This document shows, in pieces, positions 4,250 through 21,810 of a DNA stretch of 21,810 bases. A model generated the notes under the pieces. It was not told the DNA's origin, did not search any database, and saw nothing but the letters and a program-made list of their open reading frames with translations. The stretch covers positions 1 through 21,810 of the IMG/VR virus record IMGVR_UViG_3300036846_000704; one strand, 5' to 3'. The first letter of the stretch is position 1, and each line of letters opens with the position of its first letter. Made by a program: the position numbers and the translations under genes. This stretch comes from a virus.

Positions 4250-4474
4250 ATGAAAAAGCAATTTCACACGGGGCCTCCAGCGAGACCAGGTGTGCAAATC
4301 TACGGTCGCCCGAAGCTCGGCACCTATAATCTGCAGACAGTATTGCCTCAGCGAGTGCTTGATGAACTTCTGCGTGCCGAGAACGAAACGGACGTCTACC
4401 GCACACGCATCGCTGCGAACGTGCTCTGCGAATGGGCGAAAAACAAAGCAGCAGGACGCGCAAATTCGCATTGA
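4250..4474 (+). CDS. ribbon-helix-helix-like small DNA-binding protein candidate
   Basis: 74 aa, basic at both ends. After a GRPKLG turn, residues about 26-60 read as a short strand (YNLQTVLP) followed by two helices (QRVLDELLRAENE and DVYRTRIAANVLCEWAKNK). This is the arrangement of Arc/MetJ/CopG ribbon-helix-helix repressors. I start at ATG 4250; an in-frame GTG at 4241 also exists. It sits under a diverged copy of the repeated promoter module and directly upstream of a canonical copy, on the strand opposite the packaging and head genes. It may be the regulator of the modules, including its own, but this is inference; the fold call is from pattern only. Confidence 0.6.
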   Translation: MKKQFHTGPPARPGVQIYGRPKLGTYNLQTVLPQRVLDELLRAENETDVYRTRIAANVLCEWAKNKAAGRANSH

Positions 4475-4540
4475 GAAAAAAGTAGAAAAAAACACTTGCA
4501 GAGTGTTTCTACTCGTGCGATCAGTGTGTCATGACAACGA
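4471..4540 (+). promoter_or_regulatory. promoter-start module, copy 1
   Basis: A-rich tract (GAGAAAAAAGTAGAAAAAAA), CACTTGCA, then TCTACT at 4508-4513 and exactly 17 nt to ATGACAACGA at 4531. The -35 match is weak (TAGAAA with a 19-nt spacer). The dyad is degenerate (GCAGAG / CTCGTGC). There is no Shine-Dalgarno in the 17 nt. It drives the 113-aa gene at 4531. Confidence 0.7.
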
Positions 4541-4872
4541 TATTCGCAGACAATGCAGATCACTTCATTCATCACGTCGCAACAGCTTCAGAAGCAGTCG
4601 ACGAATGGCGCTTCAACGTAGGATACGACGATCGCAACATCGACAAGGCGTGGCTTTTGCACGATCGCGATGTGTGGGTCAAGAACCCGTTTTACGTCGG
4701 CGCGCCGCAACCGCATCCTGAAGACGAGCAGTTCGACGAAGAGTTTCTCAACAAGCTCGCAGCTGCTCGCGCTCGCGAAGACGCTGAGCGCGCTGACGAT
4801 CAGAAGATCGACGATCTCGCAGCTGAAGACTTCTGGCAGCGCTGTCACGAAGCTGAGATGGGCTTGCTCTAA
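4531..4872 (+). CDS. conserved-looking phage protein of unknown function
   Basis: 113 aa, acidic, beginning MTTIF directly behind promoter module copy 1. Residues 27-65 contain an NVGYDDRNIDKAW stretch and a DVWVKNPFYVGAPQPHPEDE stretch; similar Asp-Trp-x-x-NPFYxGxPxPHPED strings occur in phage proteins of unknown role (from memory, not searched). Residues 66-113 are a charged helix. It is followed by a rho-independent terminator, so with the upstream 74-aa gene it forms a self-contained rightward unit inside the leftward structural cluster. No enzymatic motif is visible. Confidence 0.75.
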   Translation: MTTIFADNADHFIHHVATASEAVDEWRFNVGYDDRNIDKAWLLHDRDVWVKNPFYVGAPQPHPEDEQFDEEFLNKLAAARAREDAERADDQKIDDLAAEDFWQRCHEAEMGLL

Positions 4873-4940
4873 TTTTTTCAACGACAAAGAGAGGTGCCTA
4901 TGCAAAACTGACAATCAATAGACGCTGAAGTGGGAAGTGA

Positions 4941-4975
4941 AGGGCGCGTGTTCGAAAGAATGCGCGCTCTTTTTT
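4941..4975 (+). terminator. rho-independent terminator ending the embedded rightward unit
   Basis: Stem A-GGGCGCG-TG pairs with TG-CGCGCTC-T (with G-U pairs), about 8-10 bp, followed by TTTTTT (4970-4975). The apex contains TTCGAAAGA, shared with the terminator at 15174. It abuts the stop codon of the leftward large terminase gene. The opposite strand lacks a U-tract, so it acts on rightward transcripts only. The 4873-4940 gap before it holds no gene. Confidence 0.85.
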
Positions 4976-6987
4976 CACGTGATGCCTCGATTGATCACAC
5001 CGAAACGAAGTGTCGATCGCACTGCTTGAGCTGTCTGCGCTTGCACTTTCGGCGCGTCGTCTGTCAGCGGCGTCGCTGTGCTGTTCGACTGCACGCCGAA
5101 TGACGTCGTGCGCTGCTCACGACCGTCTGTAGGAGGCGTGAACGCGTCGCGCTTCATCGTATCAAGACGAATCCCGCTGTGCGGCAGCTGCAGCGCAGCG
5201 AGCGCGTAGACGAAGACGTCCCACGATTCGTTGCGCTGACTCAAGCGCTTGATCCAGACGTAGGTCTTGAACCCGTTTTTCGACTTCATCACGCGCTGCT
5301 CTGCGCGCAAGCCTGCGAAGTAGGGCACATCGTAGCCGTTGATCGGTTCGTGCGCACGCAGACCTTCATCGAACACGTCAGAGCGCGGGAAGTGACAGTA
5401 GCCACCGCCGAGCTTCGTGACGTTGAGACGATTCATGATCTCCTCTTTCAACGTGTCGACACCGAGCGACGCGATCACGCACTTGTTCGACTTCGACAGT
5501 GTCATCGCGCTGATCGGCGCTTTGCCGAGACCGCCCATGCCTTTGATCGCGATGCAGCGCGGTTGTCGCGGCTTCACGTATGCGTAGACGTGATCGCTCA
5601 TGAATGACGAGTCGATGCAGATGCGTCGCACGCGCATCCTGCCGCCGTCGCTGCACGTGAACACGCGATTGTAGACTGCTTCGTCGAGCGCTTCCCACGG
5701 CTCGTCAGTGCGCGGGTCGCCGACGATCGTGATGTAGTCGAGGTGCCAATTCTCGCGACCTTTGCCCCAGCCGACGATGTCTGCGTGCAGCGATTGATCT
5801 TGCACGTCGACGCCTGCAGTGATCACGACGACGCCGTCTGGCACTTCGCATTGATACAGTTCTCGGCGCTGATACAGATCGATCTTCACTTTGCTGCCTG
5901 TGTCTTCGAAGAGCAGACCGAGTCGCGTGTTCTTGAACGTCTTCATCAGCTCGACGTCGCCTTCTGAGAGAGCAGCGCTCGCGAGTTCGAACTCGTCGCG
6001 CAAGATGTCCCAGTCGATCCACGGGTTCACGAGTCCGCTGATGAAAAAGCCGCGCGCAGTGACTTTGTTGCCGCGATCGTCGACGAGACGATGCGCGATC
6101 CACTCGCCTGTCTCGGCGAGCCACATGTATTTCTCGAACGCTTCAGCGCAGCTCGCGCACTTGTGCTCAAGTGTGTCGAGGTTGATGCGCTCCCAATCGA
6201 GCACTTGCTTGAATGCGCACGCAGGGCATGGCAGGTACCAATGTTCGCAAGTCGTCTGCGCGATCTCGCGCTCGATGTGCGACACGCCAGCGATCGACGG
6301 CGACGAGACGATGACGACTTTGCGATTCCAGAACGCGCTGCAGCGCGCGATCGCGAGCTTGAGCGGGTTACCTTCGCGCCCTGCGCTGAGCGGGTAGCGA
6401 TCGACATCGTCGAGCAGCACGACGCGCACAGGGCGACCGCTCAGCGACGCAGCGCTGTTCGCACCGCCGAGCGCGACGTAGCCGCCGTTGAACGTTTTTC
6501 TGAGCAGTCGATTGCCGTCAGCGCCTGGCTTCGGCACCTTGTCTTCGAGCGCAGGCGAATCGCGCAGCATCGGCTGCAGTCGATCGCTTGAGAACGCTTC
6601 TGCCATCTCGACTGTCGGCTGCACGACGAGAATCGGGCACGGGTCCTCAATGATGTGATAGCCGATCGGGTTCAAGATCGCGCTGTCGGTGATGCCGAGC
6701 TGAGCGCCTTTCTGCACAACGACCTTCGGCACAGACGGATCGCTGATCGCGTCCATGATCTCTTTCTCGTAGGGCACGTTCGCAGTGACCCACTCGCCGT
6801 GTTCAGCGCTCGATTCGCTCGACAAAACGCGATCGCGATCAGCCCACGCACTCAGCGTGATCGCTGACGGCGGCAGCAACGCGCTGCAAATCTCGCGCGT
6901 CAGTTCGCGCTCAGCTCTTGCGTCTGCGCTTTGCGACCCGTTTCGCAGCGCGCTTGAGCGCGTCGTTGTCGTCTTTACTTGCGCCAT
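4975..6987 (-). CDS. terminase large subunit, lambda gpA family
   Basis: About 670 aa. This is the ATP-driven packaging motor and nuclease. Visible in order: LSAWADRDRVLSSESS with GEWVTANVPYEKEIMDA (family opening); the deviant Walker A in VVVQKGAQLGITDS (about 89-102); Walker B VRVVLLDDVDRY (187-198); a CPAC...CASC zinc motif; then the nuclease part with TAGVDVQDQ, ICIDSS and WDVFVYALAALQ. The start is chosen at ATG 6987 (MAQVK), preceded by GGGG; an in-frame ATG at 7020 is possible. It overlaps the 3' end of the small terminase gene by 77 nt, as packed phage terminase pairs often do. Confidence 0.95.
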   Translation of the reverse strand: MAQVKTTTTRSSALRNGSQSADARAERELTREICSALLPPSAITLSAWADRDRVLSSESSAEHGEWVTANVPYEKEIMDAISDPSVPKVVVQKGAQLGITDSAILNPIGYHIIEDPCPILVVQPTVEMAEAFSSDRLQPMLRDSPALEDKVPKPGADGNRLLRKTFNGGYVALGGANSAASLSGRPVRVVLLDDVDRYPLSAGREGNPLKLAIARCSAFWNRKVVIVSSPSIAGVSHIEREIAQTTCEHWYLPCPACAFKQVLDWERINLDTLEHKCASCAEAFEKYMWLAETGEWIAHRLVDDRGNKVTARGFFISGLVNPWIDWDILRDEFELASAALSEGDVELMKTFKNTRLGLLFEDTGSKVKIDLYQRRELYQCEVPDGVVVITAGVDVQDQSLHADIVGWGKGRENWHLDYITIVGDPRTDEPWEALDEAVYNRVFTCSDGGRMRVRRICIDSSFMSDHVYAYVKPRQPRCIAIKGMGGLGKAPISAMTLSKSNKCVIASLGVDTLKEEIMNRLNVTKLGGGYCHFPRSDVFDEGLRAHEPINGYDVPYFAGLRAEQRVMKSKNGFKTYVWIKRLSQRNESWDVFVYALAALQLPHSGIRLDTMKRDAFTPPTDGREQRTTSFGVQSNSTATPLTDDAPKVQAQTAQAVRSTLRFGVINRGIT

Positions 6988-7510
6988 TTTTCCCCATTTC
7001 ATCGAACGAATGATCACCAAACTTCACTGCTTCTCGTAGACAATTCGCGATCGCAGTCGACAAGATCGTGCGAATCTTGACAGGGTCGCGCTGCATGATC
7101 AGCGGTCTCGTGACGCGCGCAGGCACTCCGAGCATGTGATTCTTGATCTGCGTGAGCAGCGACGTCATCACAAGCACGACTCTCGCGCGCTTGATCATGT
7201 CGCCACGAGCAATCGCAAGCTCAAGTTCCTTCTGCTGACGCACGATTTGCTGCGTCAGCTGCTTCTCGTGCTGGTAGTCGTCGCGCGACTCTTCTCTCGG
7301 CTGTCGCAGGTGCACGATGTAGCGCGAAACGTTCTCGCGCCAATCATACATGATGCGCGTGCGCTTTCCTGAGAATCGAAGCGTGCGACGCAGCACTGCC
7401 TGCTTCGTCAATTTGACAAGTTCTTGCTCAGAAATCGTCAGGATTTGGGAGAGTTCTTGCGGCGCGACAACGTCGTGATCCTCTTCACCATCGTGCTTTT
7501 TTGAACTCAA
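6911..7510 (-). CDS. terminase small subunit, Nu1-like, TTG start
   Basis: About 199 aa. It recognises the packaging site and recruits the large subunit. Residues 16-45 (APQELSQILTISEQELVKLTKQ) read as the N-terminal winged-helix DNA-binding segment. Residues about 80-140 contain the Nu1-family helix pattern KELELAIARGDMIKRARV, LLTQIKNHMLGVPARVTR. The C-terminus is strongly basic (KRAAKRVAKRRRKS). The start is TTG at 7510-7508, fixed by AGAGGA 6-7 nt upstream; the ATG at 7517 is in another frame and ends after 10 codons. It directly precedes the large subunit. Confidence 0.85.
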   Translation of the reverse strand: MSSKKHDGEEDHDVVAPQELSQILTISEQELVKLTKQAVLRRTLRFSGKRTRIMYDWRENVSRYIVHLRQPREESRDDYQHEKQLTQQIVRQQKELELAIARGDMIKRARVVLVMTSLLTQIKNHMLGVPARVTRPLIMQRDPVKIRTILSTAIANCLREAVKFGDHSFDEMGKNGASKDDNDALKRAAKRVAKRRRKS

Positions 7511-7513
7511 AAA

Positions 7514-7768
7514 TCATCCTCTTTTTGGGCGTCTCTGAACGCGCCGCTTGCCCAAACCGTTGCTAAAACTTAACGGCAGAGAAATTTGCGCTGCGGTTTG
7601 GGCATCCTTCGCGAGACATCTCTTGCGTGCATTGCTCGTGTGACATCTCTTGGGCTGTGTTGCTTGACACATTGCTACTCGCACACGAGGACACTCGCAG
7701 CCGTAGTTCTGACAGATGCCATCGATCTCTGTGCAGCCACATCTGAAGCAAGTGCTCGTCGTGCTCAT
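7514..7768 (-). CDS. small Cys-rich, probably zinc-binding protein
   Basis: 84 aa. Starts at ATG 7768 in an ATGA overlap with the upstream gene. Residues 7-25 (CFRCGC...ICQNYGCECP) hold several Cys pairs of zinc-finger type; further single Cys follow and the tail is basic (GKRRVQRRPKRG). Its stop lies in the ribosome-binding region of the small terminase gene, so it is likely co-translated with packaging genes. Unknown function. Confidence 0.6.
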   Translation of the reverse strand: MSTTSTCFRCGCTEIDGICQNYGCECPRVRVAMCQATQPKRCHTSNARKRCLAKDAQTAAQISLPLSFSNGLGKRRVQRRPKRG

Positions 7769-7923
7769 GAGCGATTGATTGCGAGCATTGCGAACACGAT
7801 GAACGTCGCGAGAATCGCGAGCAGTGACGCCCAACGTGGGCGCACTTTGTCTGCGTAGATTGTGACATACAACAGCAAGAGATATGCAGCGCACTTGAAG
7901 CAATAGCTCGTCGTTGTGGTCAT
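7765..7923 (-). CDS. 52-aa two-span membrane protein
   Basis: Too short to be obvious, but flanked by ATGA overlaps on both sides. Begins MTTTTSYCFKC, then two hydrophobic spans (AAYLLLLYVTIYA and ASLLAILATFIVFAMLAI) separated by a basic loop DKVRPRW. The two-helix, tiny format is compatible with a holin-like or other small phage membrane protein, but there is no neighbouring endolysin to support lysis. The MTTTT start recalls the rightward first genes, though no promoter module precedes it. Confidence 0.55.
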   Translation of the reverse strand: MTTTTSYCFKCAAYLLLLYVTIYADKVRPRWASLLAILATFIVFAMLAINRS

Positions 7924-8006
7924 GTCCAAGTCCACGGGATGTTTTCGCTGTAGCAGAACAGCAGCACTGGTGTGCCTGAGCCAATGAAGTCGATCGACGA
8001 GATCAT
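7920..8006 (-). CDS. 28-aa peptide gene in the leftward overlap chain
   Basis: Starts at ATG 8006 in an ATGA overlap with the 76-aa gene and ends in an ATGA overlap with the 52-aa membrane protein gene. The peptide MISSIDFIGSG...WTWT is moderately hydrophobic. It is supported mainly by the unbroken overlap chain; it may be a coupling peptide rather than a functional protein. Confidence 0.4.
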   Translation of the reverse strand: MISSIDFIGSGTPVLLFCYSENIPWTWT

Positions 8007-8233
8007 GATCGTGCTCGATTGAACGCAGTCATCAGCTCGCGTGCTTCACGTGTCGTGATCACTGAGCAATGAGTTGCAGTGTGCTCGCGCATCTGTGGTG
8101 CGCGACCTCTGCATGCGCACTGTTGAGCGAGTGTGTCGCGAGATGTCGCGTGGCTTTTCTTCACGCTCGACAGCTGCTCGCGACGTTTCTCATCGTGTTG
8201 TTGGTGTTGGTTAGAGATGTCGCTCGTGCTCAT
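8003..8233 (-). CDS. 76-aa polar protein, unknown function
   Basis: Begins MSTSDISNQHQQHDEKRREQ, strongly hydrophilic, with a single CAC pair in the middle (QQCACRGR) and an ALMTAF-like helical end. Coupled by ATGA to genes on both sides in the leftward chain that leads to the terminase. No recognisable family. Confidence 0.5.
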   Translation of the reverse strand: MSTSDISNQHQQHDEKRREQLSSVKKSHATSRDTLAQQCACRGRAPQMREHTATHCSVITTREARELMTAFNRARS

Positions 8234-8343
8234 TGATCAGCGATGAATAGCAGAATGAACGCGACAACGGCGAGAAAGAAAAGCGCGAGCACGATGAGCG
8301 CTGTGATCTTTGCGTTGCGCTCGTTGACAGCTGGTGTGTTCAT
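8230..8343 (-). CDS. 37-aa single-span membrane peptide
   Basis: Reads MNTPAVNERNAK, then one long hydrophobic helix (ITALIVLALFFLAVVAFILLF) and a short IADQ end. Start in a TGATG overlap with the upstream gene, stop in an ATGA overlap with the downstream gene. A hydrophilic N-terminus with one C-terminal span is the shape of many tiny phage membrane proteins. Function unknown. Confidence 0.55.
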   Translation of the reverse strand: MNTPAVNERNAKITALIVLALFFLAVVAFILLFIADQ

Positions 8344-8465
8344 CAGTGCATCCAGTGTTCCCAGTTTTCGTCGTCACGCGTTGGGTGCAATAGCACGTAG
8401 AAAAGACACGCGATCGCTGAGATGATCAGCAGCGCTGTGCTCGCGATGACGATGCGCGTGATCAT
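8343..8465 (-). CDS. 40-aa single-span membrane peptide
   Basis: MITR followed by a hydrophobic helix of about 22 residues (IVIASTALLIISAIACLFYV) and an acidic, Trp-containing tail (DDENWEHWMH), predicting N-in or signal-anchor topology. ATGA overlap with the upstream SEC-C gene and TGATG overlap with the next membrane peptide. Unknown role. Confidence 0.55.
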   Translation of the reverse strand: MITRIVIASTALLIISAIACLFYVLLHPTRDDENWEHWMH

Positions 8466-8668
8466 GTGTGCGGTGCTATGTGACAGCAGAACTTGAATTT
8501 TTTGCCGCTGCCGCAGCCGCAAGGCGAATAGAGATTGATCTGCTTGTTCAATCGTTCGAGCGCAGTCAGATCGCGCACGACAGGCACAAGCAGACAATCG
8601 TTGATCATCTTCTTGTGCTCGTCTGTGAGTTCGTGGAGTTCGTGAATCTCGCCTGTGTAAGGGTTCAT
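8462..8668 (-). CDS. SEC-C motif small zinc protein
   Basis: 68 aa. The C-terminal part PCGCGSGKKFKFCC (residues 49-62) is a textbook SEC-C metal-binding motif (CxCGSGxKxKxCC), as at the end of SecA and in many small proteins; it binds zinc and may contact protein or nucleic acid. The N-terminal 45 residues are helical (ELTDEHKKMINDCLL). It is the first gene of the leftward chain, starting 28 nt below a TCTACT -10-like element. Its role in the phage is unknown. Confidence 0.8.
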   Translation of the reverse strand: MNPYTGEIHELHELTDEHKKMINDCLLVPVVRDLTALERLNKQINLYSPCGCGSGKKFKFCCHIAPHT

Positions 8669-8735
8669 GCGTTTTAGACGCTACACACGAGCACAGAGTA
8701 GAAAAAGCGCAAAAAGAGCGTGCTGAATGTGCTCG
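8669..8735 (-). promoter_or_regulatory. leftward promoter candidate, mirror-image relative of the repeated module
   Basis: On the minus strand this region reads TTTTTGCGC, then TCTACT (complement of 8697-8702), CTGTGCTCG, and later GCGTCTAAAACGC just before the ATG. TTGCGC...TCTACT...TGTGC resembles the core of the rightward modules, so leftward and rightward units may share a regulator. The -35 is poor and the distance to the ATG (28 nt) is longer than the usual 17-18. No ATGACAACGA start follows. Confidence 0.45.
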
Positions 8736-8799
8736 AAAAATAGTTGAAAAAAGTGTTGCGTGCAGGTAGAATTGTGTCAGAGTGTTCGCATGACAACGA
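8736..8799 (+). promoter_or_regulatory. promoter-start module, copy 2 (best sigma70 match)
   Basis: AAAAATAG then TTGAAA (8744-8749), 17-nt spacer, TAGAAT (8767-8772), 17 nt, ATGACAACGA at 8790. This is a good sigma70-type match, which anchors the reading of the other copies. The 17-mer AAAAATAGTTGAAAAAA (8736-8752) is identical in copies 3 and 8. No Shine-Dalgarno is visible between the -10 and the ATG. Confidence 0.8.
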
Positions 8800-9761: not shown

Positions 9762-9880
9762 AGACGATCGTGAAATTCATCGTGCTCTGCTTGCGCTACA
9801 GGCGCCTGATGTGGCGGCGCGCACGACTGATCGCAGAGAACAAGCGATTGCGCAGACGAGTCGAGACTCTCGCTCAATGA
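9758..9880 (+). CDS. 40-aa Arg-rich peptide gene with TTG start (tentative)
   Basis: A TTGA overlap with the previous stop opens a 40-codon frame: a short hydrophobic start (KTIVKFIVLCLRY) and then a strongly basic stretch (RRLMWRRARLI, KRLRRRVETLAQ). A GTG at 9770 is an alternative start. Supported by the overlap pattern and codon flavour only. Confidence 0.4.
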   Translation: MKTIVKFIVLCLRYRRLMWRRARLIAENKRLRRRVETLAQ

Positions 9881-9890
9881 CGAGCTGAGA

Positions 9891-9940: not shown

Positions 9941-9952
9941 AATCTCGACTGC

Positions 9953-10016
9953 AAAAATAGTTGAAAAAAGTGTTGCACACCTTTCTACTTGTGCGAAAGT
10001 GCTCACATGACAACGA
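9953..10016 (+). promoter_or_regulatory. promoter-start module, copy 3 (closest to consensus)
   Basis: AAAAATAG, TTGAAA (9961-9966), 17-nt spacer, TCTACT (9984-9989), 17 nt, ATGACAACGA at 10007. Arms GCACA (9975-9979) and TGTGC (9990-9994) flank the -10 with a 10-nt centre, a good operator candidate. No Shine-Dalgarno. Confidence 0.8.
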
Positions 10017-11249: not shown

Positions 11250-11521
11250 AGATCACACCTTGCATGATGCGCGTGATGCGAGCTGTCGAGCAGCTCGAAG
11301 ACTGCGGTGCGCGCACGATCGACGAAGCGATGTGGCCTGATCGTCACTGCTACAAGCCGCTGAGGGCGGGCCAATACGCTGGGCGTCTCGTGCAGCTCGG
11401 ACTGCTGCGCAAGCGCTACGAAGAGCACCACAGCCTGCGCGATCGCACTCGTGTCGTCGCGATGACTGTCGAATACCGCTTGAGCGAACTCGCGCGAGAC
11501 ATTCTGCGATCTGAGCGATGA
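11246..11521 (+). CDS. 91-aa winged-helix-like protein (GTG start)
   Basis: Pattern of a small winged helix: CMMRVMRAVEQL (helix 1), ARTIDEAM (helix 2), YKPLRAGQYAGRLVQLGLLRKRY (recognition helix ending in the typical G-L-L), then a wing and VEYRLSELARDILRSE. This resembles MarR/phage wHTH proteins. The GTG start lies in a GTGA overlap. Penultimate gene of the copy-3 operon; could be a transcriptional regulator (inference). Confidence 0.6.
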   Translation: MKITPCMMRVMRAVEQLEDCGARTIDEAMWPDRHCYKPLRAGQYAGRLVQLGLLRKRYEEHHSLRDRTRVVAMTVEYRLSELARDILRSER

Positions 11522-11715
11522 AAAAGCGCATCCCTGACATCTCGACGCATCCCTACGTCGACGGCTGGTCTCGCGAAGCGATGACTGAAGCAGAAGAGAC
11601 TGCGCACATCGCAGCGCGCAAGAGACGCGGGCTTGCTGTGCGCTTTTCGCGATCGAAAAAAAAGACGAAAAAAGTGCTTGCGCACAAATCTACAAGTGCG
11701 AAAGTGTCGACATGA
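11518..11715 (+). CDS. 65-aa basic protein whose C-terminus is encoded by promoter module copy 4
   Basis: MKKRIPDISTHPYVDGWSRE, then helical MTEAEETAHIAARKRRG, and a Lys/Ser-rich tail (SRSKKKTKKVLAHKSTSAKVST). The tail is translated straight through the -35, dyad and -10 of module copy 4; the stop TGA overlaps the next gene's ATG. The body looks real from the ATGA overlap and codon flavour; the tail may simply be permitted coding of a regulatory site. Confidence 0.55.
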   Translation: MKKRIPDISTHPYVDGWSREAMTEAEETAHIAARKRRGLAVRFSRSKKKTKKVLAHKSTSAKVST

Positions 11716-11721
11716 CAACGA
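11655..11721 (+). promoter_or_regulatory. promoter-start module, copy 4 (inside a gene)
   Basis: AAAAAAAAGACGAAAAAAG, CTTGCGCACA, TCTACA (11689-11694), 17 nt, ATGACAACGA at 11712. Dyad arms GCAC (11682-11685) and GTGC (11696-11699). The -35 is weak (ACGAAA, 18-nt spacer). It lies wholly within the 3' end of the 65-aa gene. No Shine-Dalgarno. Confidence 0.7.
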
Positions 11722-14018: not shown

Positions 14019-14233
14019 AGCTGACGCCGTATCTCATGCGCGCACTGCAGCGCATCGTCGACAACGAAGGTGACGATCTCTACTTCGTCTTCGGTGACTT
14101 CACTGCAGCGACTGCTCGTAGTTATCTCTCGCTGCTCAAGATGCGCGGGCTTGCCTACACCTACGTGAGCGGTGGCGTCGTCGAAGTCTGGGCAACGCAA
14201 ATCGGGCGCAAATTGTGCAGCAAAAAAAGGTAG
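14015..14233 (+). CDS. 72-aa winged-helix-like protein, last gene of copy-4 operon
   Basis: LTPYLMRALQRIVDNEG, then FGDFTAATARSYLSLLKMRGLAYTYV, a Gly-rich wing (SGGVVEVW) and ATQIGRKLCSKKR. It has the same outline as the protein at 11246: helix, recognition helix ending in R-G-L, wing, final helix. Likely DNA-binding (inference). Its stop TAG lies inside promoter module copy 5, so regulator and next promoter abut. Confidence 0.6.
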   Translation: MKLTPYLMRALQRIVDNEGDDLYFVFGDFTAATARSYLSLLKMRGLAYTYVSGGVVEVWATQIGRKLCSKKR

Positions 14234-14288
14234 AAAAAAATACTTGCACACAATTCTGACGTGTGCGACAAGTGCTGAATGACAACGA
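14221..14288 (+). promoter_or_regulatory. promoter-start module, copy 5
   Basis: AAAAAAAGG, TAGAAA (14231-14236), 18 nt, TCTGAC (14255-14260), 18 nt, ATGACAACGA at 14279. Dyad arms GCACAC (14246-14251) and GTGTGC (14261-14266) are perfect with a 9-nt centre. The -10 is weak. It drives a 28-codon leader and the DUF932-like gene. Confidence 0.75.
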
Positions 14289-14365
14289 AAGCAGCGCACG
14301 AAGCGACTCGCACATCCGTTGTCGAAACAACAACAGACAACAAAGAAAGAAAAATCAGATCATGA
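14279..14365 (+). CDS. 28-aa leader peptide ahead of the DUF932-like gene
   Basis: The conserved ATGACAACGA opens a 28-codon frame, MTTKAAHEATRTSVVETTT...RKIRS, rich in Thr and charged residues, whose TGA overlaps the next ATG (ATGA, 14362-14365). In all other copies the conserved start belongs to a full-size gene, so here the initiation site appears to feed ribosomes into the following gene through a short leader. Whether the peptide itself matters is unknown. Confidence 0.6.
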   Translation: MTTKAAHEATRTSVVETTTDNKERKIRS

Positions 14366-15159
14366 AAACCACAGACCTCATGCTGCACTGCGGTGCAGCG
14401 AAAGTTGAACGAGCTGACGTCGAGAACGTCCCGACGCCAGACCGCACGAAAACTTGGACGCCAATCCCGCACACCTCGCTGATCGAGCGCGTCGAAGACA
14501 CGCTCAAATCAGACGGGCTGTCGATCGTCAAGCAGACGCACAGTCTCACACGCGGCGGCAACCGCTACTTCGGGCTGATGCAGATCGCGAACGGGCACAA
14601 CAGCGAAGACTATGCGTGGGTGCTCGGTCTTCGCAACTCGCACGATCAGAGCTTCCCTGCAGGTCTCGTCGTCGGCGCGAGCGTGTTCGTCTGCGACAAT
14701 CTGAGCTTCAGCGGCGAGATCAAGATGACTCGCAAGCACACAGTTCACATCATGCGCGATCTGCCTGCTCTCGTGCAGCGATCGATCGGGCAGCTGATGA
14801 GTCGCTGGCACGATCAAGACACGCGCATCGAAGCATACAAAAATTGCGAGCTGAGCGATCTGCAAGCGCACGATCTGATCGTGCGATCGATCGACGCACG
14901 CTCGCTGACTGCGACACAAGTGCCACCGCTGCTGCAAGAATGGCGTCATCCGCGTCATGAAGAGTTCGCAGCGCGCACCGCGTGGTCGCTGTTCAACGGT
15001 TACACCGAAGTGATGAAGGGCTTGAGCTTGAACGAGCTGTCACTGCGCACGCAGCGCTTGCACGGCTTGTTCGACATGCAAGCAGGCGTTCACATCGCTC
15101 GTGCTCGCGAAGTCGAGACGATCGGTGACGGTGAGATCGTCGTCAACGGTTTGAACTAA
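14362..15159 (+). CDS. DUF932-like protein
   Basis: 265 aa. Matches the DUF932 outline seen in phage and plasmid proteins: HTSLIERVEDTLKSDGL near the N-terminus, RYFGLMQI and the core VVGASVFVCDNLSFSG...HTVHIMRDLP, then RTAWSLFNGYTEVMKGLS towards the C-terminus (the family's W-x-L-x-N-x-x-T-E-x-x-K motif). Its biochemical role is not established; it is often carried by mobile elements near anti-restriction or repair genes. Coupled to a leader peptide by ATGA; followed by a rho-independent terminator, so it probably forms its own, possibly abundant, transcript. Confidence 0.8.
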   Translation: MKTTDLMLHCGAAKVERADVENVPTPDRTKTWTPIPHTSLIERVEDTLKSDGLSIVKQTHSLTRGGNRYFGLMQIANGHNSEDYAWVLGLRNSHDQSFPAGLVVGASVFVCDNLSFSGEIKMTRKHTVHIMRDLPALVQRSIGQLMSRWHDQDTRIEAYKNCELSDLQAHDLIVRSIDARSLTATQVPPLLQEWRHPRHEEFAARTAWSLFNGYTEVMKGLSLNELSLRTQRLHGLFDMQAGVHIARAREVETIGDGEIVVNGLN

Positions 15160-15809: not shown

Positions 15810-15818
15810 TGAGAAAAC

Positions 15819-16376: not shown

Positions 16377-16590
16377 GAGTTTGACCTTTCTTTTTGTGTT
16401 GTTGTTTCTGACGTGCTGCGTTGTGCAGCGTTCGAGCGCATTAGACGCACGTCTCGAAGTCGAGCGCAACAAGAAAGACCTCGCACAGACGATCCTGACG
16501 CGCTGCAGCGTGTTTCTGCGAGCTGATCATGACACGTGCAGCGCAGCTCGATCGCGGCGATCGCAGCTTGAACATGTTCAAAAAAGATGA
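16375..16590 (+). CDS. possible 71-aa small protein, start overlapping the divergent gene
   Basis: The palindromic CATG at 16374-16377 starts both the leftward repeat gene and this rightward frame. Reads MSLTFLFVLLFLTCCVV (signal- or lipoprotein-like), then LDARLEVERNKKDLAQTILT, a helical stretch with good codon flavour, and RADHDTCSAA. It ends just before promoter copy 6, as real genes do at other copies. Against it: the 5' third is antisense to the leftward gene's leader and promoter, so the true start may be the internal GTG near 16423. Confidence 0.4.
   Translation: MSLTFLFVLLFLTCCVVQRSSALDARLEVERNKKDLAQTILTRCSVFLRADHDTCSAARSRRSQLEHVQKR
16440..16469 (-). promoter_or_regulatory. leftward promoter candidate for the WGG-repeat gene
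   Basis: On the minus strand TTGCGC (complement of 16464-16469), 18-nt spacer, TCTAAT (complement of 16440-16445). The -10 context GCGTCTAAtgCGC resembles GCGTCTAAaaCGC upstream of the leftward SEC-C gene, suggesting a shared leftward promoter type distinct from the rightward modules. Confidence 0.5.
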
Positions 16591-16656
16591 AAAAAAAGTT
16601 GCTTTTTCTACTTGCGCACTTGTGTTGAGCATGAGAAGTTCAGAGCATGACAACGA
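16584..16656 (+). promoter_or_regulatory. promoter-start module, copy 6, with duplicated start region
   Basis: GATGAAAAAAAAG, TTGC, TCTACT (16607-16612). An ATG at the usual 18 nt (16631) leads out of frame; the ATGACAACGA used by the gene lies 16 nt further at 16647. GAGCATGA occurs at both places. The spacer between A-tract and -10 is shortened compared with other copies, so the promoter is weaker or shifted. Confidence 0.6.
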
Positions 16657-17351
16657 CAGACAAGAGCAGAAAGCACACACATCGCGGCACGTGCCAAGCG
16701 TGCGGACGCGCACAAGCGTTCATGATCAACGGCGTGCTCGCGAAGCACGGCTACACAGTCGACTGGGGTTTCTTCAACGGCACCTGCACGGGCGCAGAAG
16801 TGAAGCCGCTCGAACACGAGAAGACGCTGACAGAGTCGATCATCAAGCAGCTGCGCGCACAAGCGCTGATCAACGACAAGCGCGCTGCTGATCTCAAGAG
16901 CGGCGCAGTCGAGCCCGTGTGGTTCAATCGCACTCGCGACGCAGTCACGCGCAAATATGTCGACACGAACTGCTCGCGCGCAGACCTCGATGACTACAGC
17001 GCGCAGCAGCAGACGATCGCAGCGACCTACAGAGCAGAGAACACAGCGAAGCACGAGCGATCACACGCAGCGATGCTTGAGAAGCTCATTGTGTCACGTC
17101 ACGGCAAAGCGCTGATGCCAGTCTCGACGAAGCGCGAGCTGAGCGTCGGCGATCGCTTGCTGCTCGGTGGCAAGAGCGGCATCATCTGCGAAGTCGTCGA
17201 GATCAAGATGCACGTCGCGAGCGGTTGCGGCCCTTACATGAACGGGCACACGATGCTGCATGCTTTCGTGAAGCGACCAGACGGCAGAGTCATCGCAGTG
17301 CCGACGCGCACGATTCGTCAGAGCGCGATCATCGAGGAGACGCAGTCATGA
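16647..17351 (+). CDS. 234-aa protein with N-terminal Cys zinc motif
   Basis: MTTTDKSRKHTHRGTCQACGRAQ...LAKHGYTVDWGFFNGTCTG: a C-x2-C...H-G-Y...G-x-C pattern at residues 15-48 seen in small phage proteins (from memory). Residues 55-145 are a charged helical region (TLTESIIKQLRAQALINDKRAADL; YSAQQQTIAATYRAENTAKHERS). The C-terminal 75 residues look like a small beta-barrel (SVGDRLLLGGKSGIICEVVEIK; GRVIAVPTRTIRQSAI). Possibly nucleic-acid binding. Ends in ATGA overlap with the ADP-ribosyltransferase-like gene. Confidence 0.7.
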   Translation: MTTTDKSRKHTHRGTCQACGRAQAFMINGVLAKHGYTVDWGFFNGTCTGAEVKPLEHEKTLTESIIKQLRAQALINDKRAADLKSGAVEPVWFNRTRDAVTRKYVDTNCSRADLDDYSAQQQTIAATYRAENTAKHERSHAAMLEKLIVSRHGKALMPVSTKRELSVGDRLLLGGKSGIICEVVEIKMHVASGCGPYMNGHTMLHAFVKRPDGRVIAVPTRTIRQSAIIEETQS

Positions 17352-17773
17352 CGTTCACTTCAGACATCAAAGCAGAGACGTGTGCGCGATTGCGTGCGCG
17401 TCTCTGCGCAGGGATGCGCGTCTGGCGTGGCACGAACAACTACGCAAACGACGGGTCACACAAGCCGAGCGACCCGGGCGACTTCGGCGCTGGCACGTAT
17501 CACTCGACGCAGTTCTATCGTGCGCGCTGTCACGGCGCGCCAGCGCAGCGCATCGTCACACTCAAGAACCCGTTTATCGCGAGCGTCGAATCTGCCTACA
17601 CTCAGATCGCTGACGTCTTCGACACGATTCACGCTGACGATCGCGTGCAAGCATCACGCAACGCAACGCGCGCACTGCAAGCAGCAGGCTTCGACGGCAT
17701 CGTCTCGATCAACGACTACAAGCGCAGACCGTTCTGCGGCGGCGAGCTTGAGATCGTCGTCTTCGCATCATGA
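17348..17773 (+). CDS. probable ADP-ribosyltransferase-fold protein
   Basis: 141 aa. Motifs fall in the order of the R-S-E class ART fold: MRVWRGTN (Arg27, NAD-binding strand), GDFGAGTYHSTQFYRARCHG (residues 44-63, Gly-rich turn with Tyr51 and Ser53), RIVTLKNPFIAS (the L-K-N-P strand of ART-PolyVal-type proteins), AAGFDGIVS (112-120), and GGELEIVVFAS (131-141) with candidate catalytic Glu133 or Glu135. It would transfer ADP-ribose from NAD to a host target, as T4 Alt and ModA do. The target is unknown. The frame contains upstream codons, but the ATGA overlap at 17348 fixes the start. Coupled to a 106-aa Cys protein downstream. Confidence 0.6.
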   Translation: MTFTSDIKAETCARLRARLCAGMRVWRGTNNYANDGSHKPSDPGDFGAGTYHSTQFYRARCHGAPAQRIVTLKNPFIASVESAYTQIADVFDTIHADDRVQASRNATRALQAAGFDGIVSINDYKRRPFCGGELEIVVFAS

Positions 17774-18090
17774 AGCAGCACGGCCCGATACCGACGCGAC
17801 TGACGCAGTGCGCGACGTGCCCGTTCAGAACAGGCTCACCGCATGCGTATCTCGCGCACGATCTGACGCAGTCAGCGCTGAGCACCGCGTCGCGCATCTG
17901 TCACTCGACAGGTAAAGACAACGCGATCAACAAGCGCACGGGCAAGCCCGAGCGACTCTGTCGCGGCGCTCGCGACATTCAGCTCAAGATGTTCAAGAGT
18001 CTCGGCTTCATCGACGACGCGACAGACGACGCGTGGAATGCGAAGTGCGCAGAGATGGGTCTGCCAGTGCCTGCAAAGAGTGATTTTTGA
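17770..18090 (+). CDS. 106-aa Cys-motif protein (CxxCPFR type)
   Basis: QCATCPFRTGSP near residue 14, ICHSTGKDNAINKRTG with a Cys-His pair in the middle, then RLCRGARDIQ; the C-x2-C-P-F-R...C-H...C-x-G-A layout suggests a structural zinc or Fe-S site like DUF6283-type phage proteins (tentative). The C-terminus is helical (IQLKMFKSLGF). ATGA overlap with the ART-like gene; it could bind or regulate it (inference from adjacency). Confidence 0.65.
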   Translation: MKQHGPIPTRLTQCATCPFRTGSPHAYLAHDLTQSALSTASRICHSTGKDNAINKRTGKPERLCRGARDIQLKMFKSLGFIDDATDDAWNAKCAEMGLPVPAKSDF

Positions 18091-18093
18091 CGC

Positions 18094-18171
18094 TCAAAAA
18101 AAGTTGAAAAATCTTTCATTTTTGCACTTGCACACTTTTCTACCTGTGCGATCTTCTACACATGACAACGA
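18094..18171 (+). promoter_or_regulatory. promoter-start module, copy 7 (with insertion)
   Basis: CAAAAAAAGTTGAAAAATC, then an extra stretch TTTCATTTTTGCAC, CTTGCACAC, TCTACC (18139-18144), 17 nt, ATGACAACGA at 18162. GCACA (18130-18134) and TGTGC (18145-18149) flank the -10 with a 10-nt centre. The insertion moves the TTGAAA too far to act as a -35; the promoter strength is unclear. Confidence 0.7.
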
Positions 18172-19271
18172 CAAAGCAGATCACTGCAAAGTATTCAGGC
18201 AAGTGTGCGCGCTGCGGGGGAGTCATCCCGTCAGGCGCACGCTGCGAATGGGAACAAGGCGCGGGAGTGCGCCACATCTTCGACGCGAACGCTGAAGGCT
18301 TCGGCTGCCCCGTGCAGCGAGCTGAGACGAGCGCGCCGAAAGTTGCTGCGAGCGAGAACAAGCAGCCGAGCGTCGCGATGGGGGTTTTCAAGAAAGACGA
18401 TCGCATCTACGTCGTGAAGCCGAATCGCGAGAAAACTCGCGTCTACGCGAAAGAGATCGTCGAGTCGCCTGCGCGCATGACTGAGAACGGCGCAGTCGTC
18501 GACTTCGAGACGCGCTACGCTCCCGGCATCGTGTTCAAGCTCACAGAAGCAGATCGCTGGGCCCTCGCAGACGCGAAAGATTTTTTGACGAAGTTCTCGC
18601 GCTGCATCGTGTGCGGGCGTCACTTGAAAGCAGCGAAGTCAGTCGAGCGATCGATCGGCCCAGTCTGCGCGGGATATTTCAAAGGCAGCAGCCGCGTCAA
18701 CGGTTGCGCACATCACGACAGCGCCGCCCCGAAAGGGGCGGTCGCTGCTGCCGCATCTGACGATCAGCTCGAAGCTGACGAAGCGCGCGCCTACAGCGAC
18801 ATGCAAGCGAGCGCAGCGAACGTCGAGGGCACGTGCAGCAAGTGTCACGAGAAGTTCAGCAACTGCACGAGCGACTACCACTGCGCGCGCAATCAGAAGA
18901 TGAACGCTCTGCGCGCAGCACCGCTCACAGACGACGAGAAAGCGCTGATCGCGCACATCGACGAGCAGACGCGCAAGACTGAAGCGTGGGTCGCTGAAGA
19001 CCCGCAGAACCGCTGGGCGGCGACGTGCGTCAATGACATCGCGCACTGGCGCGAATACGGCATCAGCAGCGTCGCTGACTTCAAAGCGATGGAAGCTGCA
19101 GAAGCTGAGAAAGAGGCGCGCAAAGAGTCCTACTACATCGACGACGTCGTGCAGCCGACACTCGAAGAGAGCAACGCGCAGCTGCTTGCGCGTGACGACA
19201 TGAAACCTATCAAAGCGATCGACGCTGCGTTCAGACTCGCGTTGATCAAAGCGCGCAACGCACGCAACTGA
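18162..19271 (+). CDS. 369-aa multi-zinc-motif protein with DUF6011-like domain
   Basis: Residues 8-50: zinc ribbon KYSGKCARCGGVIPSGARC...FGCP. Residues 75-140: a domain starting VFKKDDRIYVVKPNREKTRVYA. Residues 148-172: CIVCGRHLKAAKSVERSIGPVCAGYF, the C-x2-C-x-x-x-L...S-V...G-P-x-C pattern of DUF6011. Residues 183-205 are an Ala-rich linker encoded over a strong hairpin. Residues 224-242: CSKCHEKFSNC...C, a further Cys motif. The C-terminal 120 residues are helical and acidic. Likely nucleic-acid-associated; role unknown. Promoter-proximal gene of the copy-7 operon. TGATG overlap with the next frame. Confidence 0.75.
   Translation: MTTTKQITAKYSGKCARCGGVIPSGARCEWEQGAGVRHIFDANAEGFGCPVQRAETSAPKVAASENKQPSVAMGVFKKDDRIYVVKPNREKTRVYAKEIVESPARMTENGAVVDFETRYAPGIVFKLTEADRWALADAKDFLTKFSRCIVCGRHLKAAKSVERSIGPVCAGYFKGSSRVNGCAHHDSAAPKGAVAAAASDDQLEADEARAYSDMQASAANVEGTCSKCHEKFSNCTSDYHCARNQKMNALRAAPLTDDEKALIAHIDEQTRKTEAWVAEDPQNRWAATCVNDIAHWREYGISSVADFKAMEAAEAEKEARKESYYIDDVVQPTLEESNAQLLARDDMKPIKAIDAAFRLALIKARNARN
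18720..18746 (+). other. GNRA-tetraloop RNA hairpin inside the coding sequence
   Basis: CCGCCCC (18724-18730), GAAA, GGGGCGG (18735-18741) form a perfect 7-bp GC stem closed by a GNRA-type tetraloop, extended by AGCG/CGCT across a bulged U. It lies in the Ala-rich linker of the 369-aa protein, where sequence is free to vary. No U-tract follows. Possible roles: RNA processing site, ribosome slow-down, or protein binding site. Confidence 0.7.
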
Positions 19272-19450
19272 TGCAAGAGACTGTCGCAGACTTCAAGCAT
19301 CGACTCGCGCTCATGATTCGTGAGCGCGAGACGGGCAAGAAATACAGCTTCATCGGCGCGGCGCGCTCTCATCAGTGCGTCGTGCGATCGAGCAGCAGCA
19401 ACAACAAACCAAAGAGGGACAAACATGACAACGCAAAAAATCAAAACTGA
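19271..19450 (+). CDS. 59-aa small protein in the copy-7 operon
   Basis: Starts in a TGATG overlap with the 369-aa gene. MQETVADFKHRLALMIRERETGKKYSFIGAARS looks like a folded helical segment; the end is polar and Lys/Asn/Ser-rich. Its 3' part overlaps the next gene's start by 26 nt. Supported by the overlap pattern and codon flavour; unknown function. Confidence 0.5.
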   Translation: MQETVADFKHRLALMIRERETGKKYSFIGAARSHQCVVRSSSSNNKPKRDKHDNAKNQN

Positions 19451-19901
19451 TAAGGAGCGACTGAACGACGCCTTCGCGCAGCTGCGCAAGCACAAGTTCG
19501 TCGCGAAACAAAACCACCTCTGCTGCCAGTCGTGTGGCTGGGCAGCGATCGACGGGAAGCACCCAGACGCGAAAGACGTGATCTTCTATCACAAGCAAGA
19601 CAGTGACGCGCTGAAAGGCGATCGACTCGTCGGCAAGCTCTACCTCGCGCACCGCTTCAGGACCTCGGGCAGAGCGCTTGACGCCTGCGCAGTGCTGCAT
19701 CAGCACGGCTTCTACACGATCTGGGACGGCACCGACGAGACGCGCATCGCGATCGTCAACATGACGCCTGAACTCGAAGCGCTGAAGATGCTCAAGACTG
19801 CTGATCGCGTCTGCAAGAAAGCAGGTCACGAGTGGGGCTGGCAGCTGCAAGCGCGCGAGCTGATCAAGAACGCAGAGGAATCGATCGGAGGTGCTCAATG
19901 A
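19425..19901 (+). CDS. DUF6891-like protein
   Basis: 158 aa. HLCCQSCGWAAID, then DVIFYHKQDSDAL, LYLAHRF, HGFYTIWDGTDETRIAI and a C-terminal helix. The order CCxxCG...VFYHxQD...W-D-G-x-x-x-x-R-I-x-V resembles DUF6891 proteins (tentative). The Cys cluster is probably metal-binding. The start ATGACAACGC resembles the module start but is preceded by AGAGGGAC, a Shine-Dalgarno, and has no promoter module, so it is an internal gene. ATGA overlap downstream. Confidence 0.7.
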   Translation: MTTQKIKTDKERLNDAFAQLRKHKFVAKQNHLCCQSCGWAAIDGKHPDAKDVIFYHKQDSDALKGDRLVGKLYLAHRFRTSGRALDACAVLHQHGFYTIWDGTDETRIAIVNMTPELEALKMLKTADRVCKKAGHEWGWQLQARELIKNAEESIGGAQ

Positions 19902-20128
19902 AGCCGTCGACGACGACTGCTGCTGAAGCAGCCGTCTTCACTTGTCTCGCGATGTTCGCGATCTTGATCGTCTTGATACTCGCTGGGCTTGCATCGTCTG
20001 ACAACGATGAGCGACCGAGCAGCACGACGACGAGCGCGCAGAGCACGCCTACAGCAACACCTTCAGAAGATGCGATCGACGATGCTGATGCTGTCGACAC
20101 GTGGAACGAAGAGGGCCCTGAGCAATGA
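19898..20128 (+). CDS. 76-aa single-span membrane protein
   Basis: MKPSTTTAAEAA then a hydrophobic helix (VFTCLAMFAILIVLILAGLA, about 13-32) and a Ser/Thr/Pro- and Asp-rich polar tail (ERPSSTTTSAQSTPTATPSED; ending DTWNEEGPEQ). GGAGG precedes the ATG, one of few good ribosome sites in this half. ATGA overlaps on both sides. Low-complexity tail suggests an exposed, flexible domain; topology and role are not known. Confidence 0.65.
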   Translation: MKPSTTTAAEAAVFTCLAMFAILIVLILAGLASSDNDERPSSTTTSAQSTPTATPSEDAIDDADAVDTWNEEGPEQ

Positions 20129-21012
20129 AGGAAGCATTCATCGATCGCAAGTTCAGTCTCGCGAGTCTCGCGCTCATCAAAAAAGCGAACGAGATTCTCG
20201 CTGAGTATGAGGCAGCTGGCTACGACTTGAGCGTGCGTCAGCTTTACTACCAATTCGTTGCGCGCGACATCATCCCGAACACGACGAAAAGCTACAGCAA
20301 CCTGTCGTCTGTGATCAGCGACGCGCGCAAAGCAGGCATGATCGACTGGGGGATGATTCTCGATCGCGGTCGTGTCGTCGTGTCGAACTCGCACTGGAAG
20401 ACGCCGAAGGAGATTCTTGAAAGCGCTGCGACGTCGTTCGCAATCGACAAGTGGTTGACGCAGCCGAACTTCGTCTACGTGATGGTAGAGAAGCAAGCGC
20501 TCGAAGGTGTGCTGCAGCCTGTCTGCAGCGCGCTCGATGTGCCGTTTCTCGCGAACAAGGGCTACTGCTCAGACAGCACGATGTATCGCGTCGGCAAGCG
20601 CATCGAGCACGCGCGCATGCGCGGCAAAGAGCCTGTCGTCATCTACCTCGGCGATCATGACCCGAGCGGCATCGACATGACGCGCGACGTGACTGAGCGC
20701 CTTGAGATGTATTCTGGGGGGCCTGTCGACGTGCTGCGCGTTGCGCTCAACATGGATCAGATCAGACGACTGCGCCCACCTGAGAACCCAGCGAAGTCAA
20801 GCGACTCGCGCTTCGATTCGTATGTCGAGCGCTTCGGCACTTCGAGCTGGGAGCTTGACGCGATCGAGCCGAATGAGCTTGCGCAAATCGTGCGCACGAA
20901 CATCATCGCGAATCGTGACGAAGACGAGTGGGACAAAGCAGTCGAGCGCGAAGACAACATGAAGATCGACCTGCAGCGCATGGCTGACGACTACGAAGAG
21001 GAGCGAGAGTGA
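20125..21012 (+). CDS. TOPRIM-domain protein related to Topo VI-A/Spo11
   Basis: 295 aa. N-terminal region SVRQLYYQFVARDIIPN...SDARKAGMIDW...DRGR resembles the winged-helix part of topoisomerase VI subunit A/Spo11-like proteins. The TOPRIM domain shows VMVEKQALEGVL with Glu122, GYCSDSTMY, and IYLGDHDPSGIDM with Asp177 and Asp179 as metal ligands. C-terminal PAKSSDSRFDSYVERFG and SSWELDAIEPNEL are typical of the mobile-element branch. It could nick, rejoin or otherwise cut DNA, for example in replication or host DNA processing; whether it has a catalytic Tyr is unclear (candidates Tyr41, Tyr42). ATGA overlap upstream, GTGA overlap downstream. Confidence 0.8.
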   Translation: MKEAFIDRKFSLASLALIKKANEILAEYEAAGYDLSVRQLYYQFVARDIIPNTTKSYSNLSSVISDARKAGMIDWGMILDRGRVVVSNSHWKTPKEILESAATSFAIDKWLTQPNFVYVMVEKQALEGVLQPVCSALDVPFLANKGYCSDSTMYRVGKRIEHARMRGKEPVVIYLGDHDPSGIDMTRDVTERLEMYSGGPVDVLRVALNMDQIRRLRPPENPAKSSDSRFDSYVERFGTSSWELDAIEPNELAQIVRTNIIANRDEDEWDKAVEREDNMKIDLQRMADDYEEERE

Positions 21013-21164
21013 TCACGATCTGCGATGGCGACACGATCACTGAGATCGACGAGATGCCAGACACGTCGAGTGGCTTCATCTGGTTTAACGGCGAGCAGCG
21101 CGAGATTCGCGAAATACACACGACGTCGCACGGCACGCAGATCGAGCTTGAGGACAACACATGA
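21009..21164 (+). CDS. 51-aa small protein (GTG start)
   Basis: GTGA overlap with the TOPRIM gene, ATGA overlap with the next. Reads ITICDGDTITEIDEMPDTSSG then FIWFNGEQREIREIHTTSHG and an acidic end: a mostly beta, SH3-like mini-domain. Unknown function; may be a TOPRIM partner (adjacency only). Confidence 0.6.
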   Translation: MITICDGDTITEIDEMPDTSSGFIWFNGEQREIREIHTTSHGTQIELEDNT

Positions 21165-21421
21165 CAGCTGAAAAATTTCAACCGATCGATCTTGACGACG
21201 AGTTCGAAGCGTTCATGCGAAAAGTGAACCCGCAAGTGCGACAACATGAGGCGCAATACAAAGAGAGCAGACGCGTGTGGTTCGCTGCGTGCGCTGCGCT
21301 CTTTCATCACATGGCGAATAAGGTGACAGAGATCAGCGACGACGAAGGCGTCAAGGAATACGAGAACGTCACGCAGCAGCTGCAAGAGTTCATGCTGCGC
21401 GTGAAAGAGGGACGCGACTGA
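21161..21421 (+). CDS. 86-aa helical protein, unknown function
   Basis: MTAEKFQPIDLDDEFEAFMRKV, then RRVWFAACAALFHHMANKV and a C-terminal helix (VTQQLQEFMLRVKEG). All-alpha and soluble. ATGA overlap upstream; the MazG-like gene starts 1 nt after its stop. It might be a MazG partner (adjacency only). Confidence 0.65.
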   Translation: MTAEKFQPIDLDDEFEAFMRKVNPQVRQHEAQYKESRRVWFAACAALFHHMANKVTEISDDEGVKEYENVTQQLQEFMLRVKEGRD

Positions 21422-21422
21422 C

Positions 21423-21749
21423 ATGCTCAACGAGATCGAACATCTGCTTGTGTGCCTCAACGAAGAGTGCTGCGAGATCGCGAAAGAATGCACGAAAGCG
21501 CTGCGCTTCGGACTCGACGACTACAACGCCGAGAATCATGACGACCCGCTGAACCGTGAGCGCTTGCGTCGCGAGCTGTGCGATCTGCTCGGCGTGATCG
21601 AGCTGCTCGTCGCACGTGGCGTGATCACAGACCCTCATCTCGACACGCAGCGCATCTACTTCAAAAAAGTGCGCGTCGCGAAGTTCATGCGCTACGCACA
21701 GAACGCTGGCGCGCTCGATCGAACGATCGTCCTCGACTTCGAAAAATAG
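21423..21749 (+). CDS. MazG-like nucleotide pyrophosphohydrolase
   Basis: 108 aa. The family's metal-binding helices are visible: LNEECCEIAKE (Glu14, Glu15, Glu18) and LRRELCDLLGVIE (Glu51, Asp54), in the all-alpha MazG/iMazG outline; KALRFGLDDY is also typical of phage members. It would hydrolyse (d)NTPs or alarmones in infected cells; substrate not readable. The stop TAG forms part of promoter module copy 8, so it is the last gene of the copy-7 operon. Confidence 0.8.
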   Translation: MLNEIEHLLVCLNEECCEIAKECTKALRFGLDDYNAENHDDPLNRERLRRELCDLLGVIELLVARGVITDPHLDTQRIYFKKVRVAKFMRYAQNAGALDRTIVLDFEK

Positions 21750-21807
21750 TTGAAAAAAACACTTGTGCGCTTTTCTACTTGCTGATATGGTTCACGCATG
21801 ACAACGA
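21742..21807 (+). promoter_or_regulatory. promoter-start module, copy 8
   Basis: AAAAATAG, TTGAAA (21750-21755), 18 nt, TCTACT (21774-21779), 18 nt, ATGACAACGA at 21798. The TAG doubles as the MazG-like gene's stop. A TATGGT (21785-21790) further on, 17 nt after TTGTGC, is an alternative -10. The dyad is incomplete here. Confidence 0.75.
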
Positions 21808-21810
21808 AAA
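21798..21810 (+). CDS. start of the next module-driven gene (4 codons)
   Basis: ATGACAACGAAAA reads MTTK and runs off the window. Inferred as a gene start from the conserved module alone; the product is unknown. Confidence 0.55.

Follow-up and report, generated by a model that had tools for sequence, protein, structure and literature searches.

The stoperators of L5 and cluster A phages are 13-bp asymmetric repressor-binding sites (GGTGGMTGTCAAG) that block transcription. In cluster K mycobacteriophages, the SAS (GGGATAGGAGCCC) is a Shine-Dalgarno (SD)-like leader element (PMC3203893). In published leaderless genes, a -10 box of the form TANNNT precedes the ORF by about 6-7 nt (PMC12340547, PMC3160421). 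The lambda cI mRNA is a leaderless phage mRNA that is transcribed from the A of its AUG, as cited in PMC3160421 and PMC9031893. CA repeats after the AUG enhance the translation of both leadered and unleadered mRNAs in E. coli constructs (Martin-Farmer and Janssen, 1999, cited in PMC9031893). The module described here is dispersed over a 21,810-base viral contig, a genome fragment that is referred to as the window. Similar to the stoperators, it is a dispersed phage repeat with a predicted tie to transcription control. It shares with SAS/ESAS the short length, the position at many phage gene starts and an inverted-repeat character, whereas it differs from SAS in that it carries no SD sequence and extends into the coding sequence (PMC3203893). 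Neither consensus was found in the window (SAS with up to two mismatches, 0 matches; an L5-type stoperator consensus with two mismatches, 0 matches). This agrees with an earlier sequence-only reading of the window, which had likened the module to such repeats in idea but not in sequence.

The minus strand of the window encodes a terminase large subunit (GpA type, 4975-7020), a lambda-type portal and a ClpP-like head protease, and the plus strand carries many small genes. Exact matches to ATGACAACGA, the sequence shared at the start codon, number eight on the plus strand, with none on the minus strand and none for a reversed control. With one mismatch allowed, 12 matches were obtained where 2.3 are expected, and 0/100 shuffles reached 12. 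All eight copies that the sequence-only reading had reported were thus recovered, in clear excess over chance (Table 1). Since these copies were picked by the ATGACAACGA tail alone, they are free of the selection bias that a promoter matrix introduces. Copy 4 overlaps the 3' end of the ORF 11518-11715, and the gene behind copy 8 runs off the end of the contig; the -10 hexamer of copy 8 was placed by eye, gapped scoring having put it 1 nt earlier.

Table 1. Predicted promoter elements of the eight window copies, and associated small ORFs.
Feature	Positions	Strand	A-tracts (UP)	-35	Spacer	Extended -10	-10	ATG and tag	Remarks
Copy 1	4472-4540	+	4474-4492	TTGCAG 4496-4501	N17		GATCAG 4519-4524	4531, tag ACAACGA
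Copy 2	8730-8799	+	8735-8752	TTGCGT 8756-8761	N16	TGTGT	CAGAGT 8778-8783	8790, tag
Copy 3	9947-10016	+	9952-9969	TTGCAC 9973-9978	N16	TGTGC	GAAAGT 9995-10000	10007, tag
Copy 4	11652-11721	+	11656-11673	TTGCGC 11678-11683	N16		GAAAGT 11700-11705	11712, tag
Copy 5	14219-14288	+	14222-14240	TTGCAC 14244-14249	N17		GACAAG 14267-14272 (or ACAAGT 14268-14273)	14279, tag
Copy 6	16580-16656	+	16580-16597	TTGCGC 16612-16617	N17	TGA	GAAGTT 16635-16640	16647, tag
Copy 7	18095-18171	+	18096-18111	TTGCAC 18128-18133	N16	TGTGC	GATCTT 18150-18155	18162, tag	DUF6011 gene
Copy 8	21738-21807	+	21741-21759	TTGTGC 21763-21768	N17	TGA	TATGGT 21786-21791	21798, tag
Mini-ORF	14279-14365	+							28 codons, MTTKAAHEATRTSVVETTTDNKERKIRS; predicted leaderless; TGA overlaps the start ATG (14362) of the DUF932-like gene at 14362-15159
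Small conserved protein	L121:14955-15167	minus							RTVKISDVLHHRIRVLSVQKR..; orthologs in relatives; ribbon-helix-helix-like by eye; module variant upstream, with a longer gap to the ATG

The module is not restricted to the window. Relatives were found via the terminase and scanned with a matrix built from seven copies; in these genomes the module occurs at some 40 additional gene starts. Together with the window copies these form a set of 48 sites, drawn from six relative contigs and two fragments besides the window, for which a spacer of 16 or 17 nt was allowed. Above 15 bits, the matrix found 33 sites, compared with 0.95 expected in shuffled sequence. When a promoter-only matrix, trained partly on sites with an ATG within 3-11 nt downstream, was applied above 18 bits, the next ATG lay 5-7 nt past the -10 box at 36/41 sites, compared with 3.9% of random positions. 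The sequence-only reading, which had proposed a motif-model scan of relatives as a check, was right in describing one dispersed promoter-plus-start module.

The 48 sites share a common architecture. The A-tracts peak at -54 to -50 and at -43 to -39, which are 11 bp apart and correspond to one helical turn. Counted conditionally on matches to TTG and TGTG, TTG occupies -34 to -32 at 48/48 sites, and the extended -10 element TGTGN has G-16 at 47, T-15 at 46 and G-14 at 46 of them. The -10 box takes the form NANNNT, with A-11 at 42/48 and T-7 at 45/48 sites, and its end lies 5-7 nt before the ATG at 45/48. By automatic placement, the -35/-10 spacer is N16 at 40 sites and N17 at eight. TTG lies 34-35 nt before the ATG in every window copy. 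With the range widened to 33-36 nt, it is found in 8/8 window copies and 38/40 sites of relatives, compared with 42/508 (8%) gene starts that do not carry the module. The -35 box of the window reads TTGC(G/A)C, and TTGACA or TTGACT is found in several relatives. Hexamers such as GAAAGT, GATCTT and TATGGT form the -10 box, and some relatives have TACTTT, TAAAGT or TATGGT. Textbook boxes are present in the relative G005 at 28557 (TTGACA...TGTGC TACTTT acactc ATG) and at 18456 (TTGACA...TGTGC TATGGT tgaatct ATG).

In terms of a sigma70 promoter, the conserved peaks correspond to the subsites of an UP element, a -35 box, an extended -10 element (TRTGN), the two -10 bases that matter most and the YR sequence preferred as initiator. 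The spacing, the TRTGN element and the position of the A-tracts (about -57 to -38) agree with a sigma70 promoter that has an UP element and an extended -10 box. The copies are therefore strongly indicated, from their sequence, to be sigma70-type promoters, as judged against a general sigma70 consensus that may not be that of the host. The first position of the -10 box departs from TANNNT; it is G at 25/48 and T at 11/48 sites, and the hexamer matches TATAAT poorly. The extended TGTGN, present at nearly all sites, may compensate for this base. The -10 box may usually start with G because these genomes avoid the TA step (odds ratio 0.25 in the window). Conservation of the spacer from -27 to -19, which reads TTTTCTACT, the reverse complement AAGTAGAA or TTGTGTT, exceeds what sigma70 alone requires, and this stretch may be used by another protein or a second start. 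For the 70 proteins of the relative G004, the 25 best-ranking Pfam or PHROG families include no RNA polymerase or sigma factor; the window represents only a fragment of a genome.

The sequence-only reading had assigned the promoter differently, with TTGAAA as the -35 box, TCTACT as the -10 box and a start about 10 nt before the ATG, which would produce a short leader without an SD sequence. Its description of A-rich tracts, of a TCTACT-like element and of a distance of 17-18 nt from this element to an ATG is accurate, except that copy 6 fits only with a different ATG. TTGAAA-N17-TAGAAT (8744-8772) and TTGAAA-N17-TCTACT (9961-9989) are plausible hexamer pairs, and conservation of the TCTAC spacer exceeds the background. 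However, TTGAAA or TTGACA (up to one mismatch) is paired with TCTACT at only 2/8 window copies and 6/40 sites in relatives. The supposedly fixed distance from TCTACT (up to one mismatch, 15-20 nt before the ATG of the gene) holds in 5/8 copies, whereas TTG keeps its distance in all eight. In copy 6 the TCTACT sits upstream of the -35 box; TTCTAC has this position there and in several relatives, and is elsewhere replaced by AAGTAGAA or TTGTGTT. The cryptic ATG that this assignment requires in copy 6 is needless, as TTGCGC is located at the normal distance from the ATG of the gene itself. Moreover, the conservation of TGTG, A-11, T-7 and C-1 is left unexplained. The assignment is thus improbable. 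TTGAAA and TCTACT correspond to the proximal A-tract of the UP element and to the conserved spacer, and the boxes are the TTG at -34 and the -10 hexamer 5-7 nt before the ATG. The fit to sigma70 stands, through other elements than those originally named.

A -10 box 5-7 nt before the ATG, combined with the normal distance of 6-7 nt from a -10 box to the start, implies that transcription would begin at the A of the ATG, give or take one base, leaving no leader of some 10 nt. A pyrimidine occupies -1 at 44/48 module starts, compared with 190/360 ATG starts of other genes (p = 5e-8, Fisher test). This preference is expected if the A of the ATG is +1, and there is otherwise no obvious reason for it. 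An SD pairing energy at or below -6 kcal is found at 2% of module starts, 30% of the other genes of the same phages and 12% of random sites, and folding over +1 to +40 is weaker in the module mRNAs (-3.5 vs -5.7 kcal, p = 1e-4). With good confidence, the module mRNAs are predicted to be leaderless. The leaderless genes of Deinococcus-Thermus and Actinobacteria similarly have a -10 box with A2 and T6 about 5-7 nt before the ATG, no SD sequence and a predicted start at the A of the AUG (PMC12340547, PMC3160421). In contrast to these genes, the present sites have UP tracts, a -35 box, an extended -10 box and a constant spacer of 16-17 nt with conserved sequence, G predominates at the first position of the -10 box, and the start codon is followed by a phage-specific tag. 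By analogy, the mechanism would resemble that of the Deinococcus and Actinobacteria genes, with a more complete promoter. Lambda cI (cited in PMC3160421, PMC9031893) is a single gene, whereas a set of operons per phage is concerned here.

We consider it likely, with a probability of roughly 0.8, that each copy is a host-type sigma70 (RpoD) promoter of a presumed early operon, from which transcription would start on the A of the ATG to give a leaderless mRNA with a phage-specific start tag. The phased A-tracts would form an UP element that contacts the alpha subunits of RNA polymerase, TTG(C/A)(G/A)C at -34 would serve as the -35 box, and TGTGN plus NANNNT ending at -7 would serve as the extended -10 box. 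C or T at -1 and A at +1 would form the initiator, with RNA synthesis from the A of the ATG. The 5'-terminal AUG of the leaderless mRNA would then be translated without an SD sequence, and the A/C-rich first codons (ATGACAACGA in the window) would constitute the start tag.

An imperfect dyad, CGCAC-N10-GTGCG, lies over the -35 and -10 boxes, so that the block could mainly be an operator over the -35 box, spacer and -10 box, bound by a repressor or activator, of phage or host origin, that coordinates the early operons, with a promoter beneath. The left arm CGCAC (-31 to -27) is 58-73% conserved per base despite its departure from the sigma70 consensus ACA, and the matrix scan also matches some sites on the reverse strand. 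However, the right arm is the extended -10 element, for which no operator is required, and the left arm is absent at sites with TTGACA or TTGACT. The sole candidate regulator, a small conserved protein encoded beside a module variant (Table 1), has neither a Pfam match nor a PDB fold match, its AlphaFold model is of low confidence (pLDDT 65), and no regulator was found. A predominantly operator role is compatible with a sigma70 promoter at the same sites, and we regard it as possible but rather unlikely.

The tag evolves separately from the promoter. ATGACAACGA lies outside the general module, since the promoter in relatives precedes other starts: ATGAANAATGAATCG-like sequences in G003-G005, ATGACAAAYGAA in G006, ATGACAACA in G007 and ATGACRAA in G009. 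Orthologs differ by phage in their tag peptides (MTTT, MNNES, MTNE, MTK), and unrelated proteins of one phage share a tag. For instance, the DUF6011 protein starts with MTTTKQITAKYSGKC in the window and with MNNESKTITAKFSGKC, MNETESKQITAKFSGRC, MTNESITIKAKFNGKC or MTTTARKQITAKFTGKC in relatives. In G004 (L119:11083, minus), the DUF6011 gene is frameshifted after MNETESKQITAKYS behind an intact module, which reflects an assembly error or a real break. The GHKL-type ATPase (PF13589, weak match) is another product encoded behind the module in relatives. Tag identity between non-orthologous genes is 0.63 within a phage and 0.49 between phages (p < 0.001), and the difference disappears by +13 to +18. 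Orthologs carry the tag of their own phage, which shows that the tag belongs to the phage and not to the protein.

An alternative is that the tag is a protein signal and that selection acts on the N-terminal peptide (MTTT, MNNES, MTNE), for instance on its effect on stability or on the processing of methionine. The tags are alike as peptides in several phages (MNNES, MNETES, MRNES, MTNES) and are also found on a few genes that lack the module. However, the tags of orthologs differ wholly, and synonymous positions are fixed. Codons 2 and 3 are ACA ACG in all eight window copies, compared with an overall threonine usage of 26% ACA and 52% ACG; glutamate in the tag is nearly always GAA, which accounts for about 45% of Glu codons; and AGC, the commonest serine codon, is avoided. 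The protein-signal explanation is therefore unlikely. Fixed synonymous positions show that selection or copying acts on the nucleic acid, as the sequence-only reading had held for the conservation across the start codon. At 19425 on the plus strand, the start ATGACAACGC follows an SD-like GAGGG without the module and is a tag without a promoter, so that the association of the tag with leaderless starts is not a strict one.

In the proposed mechanism, the tag would be kept as a 5' mRNA sequence and not for its proteins, either because it favours initiation or because it was spread and homogenised with the promoter. The CA-repeat enhancer likewise places A/C-rich codons right after the AUG (Martin-Farmer and Janssen, 1999, cited in PMC9031893); it was studied in E. 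coli constructs, whereas the present tag is a natural, repeated, phage-specific sequence and a candidate enhancer. By this analogy, the tag may enhance translation in this phage. A bolder proposal, which we regard as a long shot, is that the tag is a genome-wide, phage-specific 5' identity mark of the mRNA, whose copies on unrelated leaderless early genes evolve in concert and are recognised by a dedicated factor, such as a phage protein, a modified ribosome or a small RNA. If this were true, the phage would rely on the tag-reading factor to have its own leaderless mRNAs selected for translation in the course of infection. Copies of the promoter core and of the tag resemble each other slightly more within a phage than between phages, as would those of a dispersed repeat copied by recombination without a function of its own. 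However, the core is kept between phages whose proteins are 65-75% identical, its orientation is always the same, it lies 5-7 nt before gene starts, and its per-base conservation matches the promoter contacts. A functionless repeat is accordingly very improbable.

Copy 5 does not open the large ORF but a 28-codon mini-ORF ahead of a DUF932-like gene (Table 1). In G003, G004 and G007, the DUF932-like gene begins directly at the module. The mini-ORF of the window is probably coupled to the DUF932-like gene behind it. A GTG start at 14272, given for the DUF932-like gene by a simple gene caller, was dropped in favour of the ATG at 14362 by ortholog alignment.

A search for TTCTACTTGTGCGANNNT..ATGA in 2.9 million viral contigs returned only members of this phage group, so that the promoter family appears to be confined to this group in IMG/VR at the stringency used. 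A looser search with TCTACNNG..ATGACAACGA over viral contigs gave 95 stretches, of which one belonged to a true relative (L001, near-identical to the window) and the rest were chance-like, without other parts of the module. Distant DUF932 relatives outside the group have no module; some carry promoters of the TTGACA/TAxATT type 9 nt before the ATG. TerL is at most about 41% identical to that of isolated phages. Among contigs selected as one genome per species, TerL gave only matches of 34-35%, to Acetobacteraceae, and no host was assigned. The topoisomerase-like gene at 20125-21012 on the plus strand (phrog_6247 'DNA topoisomerase', E 2e-106) is the sole window gene with DNA similarity to isolated phages, namely Stenotrophomonas phages. 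The dinucleotide bias of the window and of G003-G006 is extreme, with CC/GG reaching 0.36 and TA 0.25 of the expected frequency, and CGATCG is the commonest hexamer of the window. The bias is far weaker in G007 and G009 (terminase about 60-72% identical), which indicates that it shifts quickly within the group.

Leaderless sigma70 promoters are of an already known kind, and the start tag is the unusual part. Promoter evolution is separated here from the start-codon context, as orthologs retain the promoter and adopt the tag of the resident genome. The natural tag variants make the role of the sequence after the AUG in leaderless translation directly testable. The analysis predicts a family of uncultured tailed phages in which the early operons would be leaderless and the other genes SD-led, and which would thus combine two modes of initiation in one virus.
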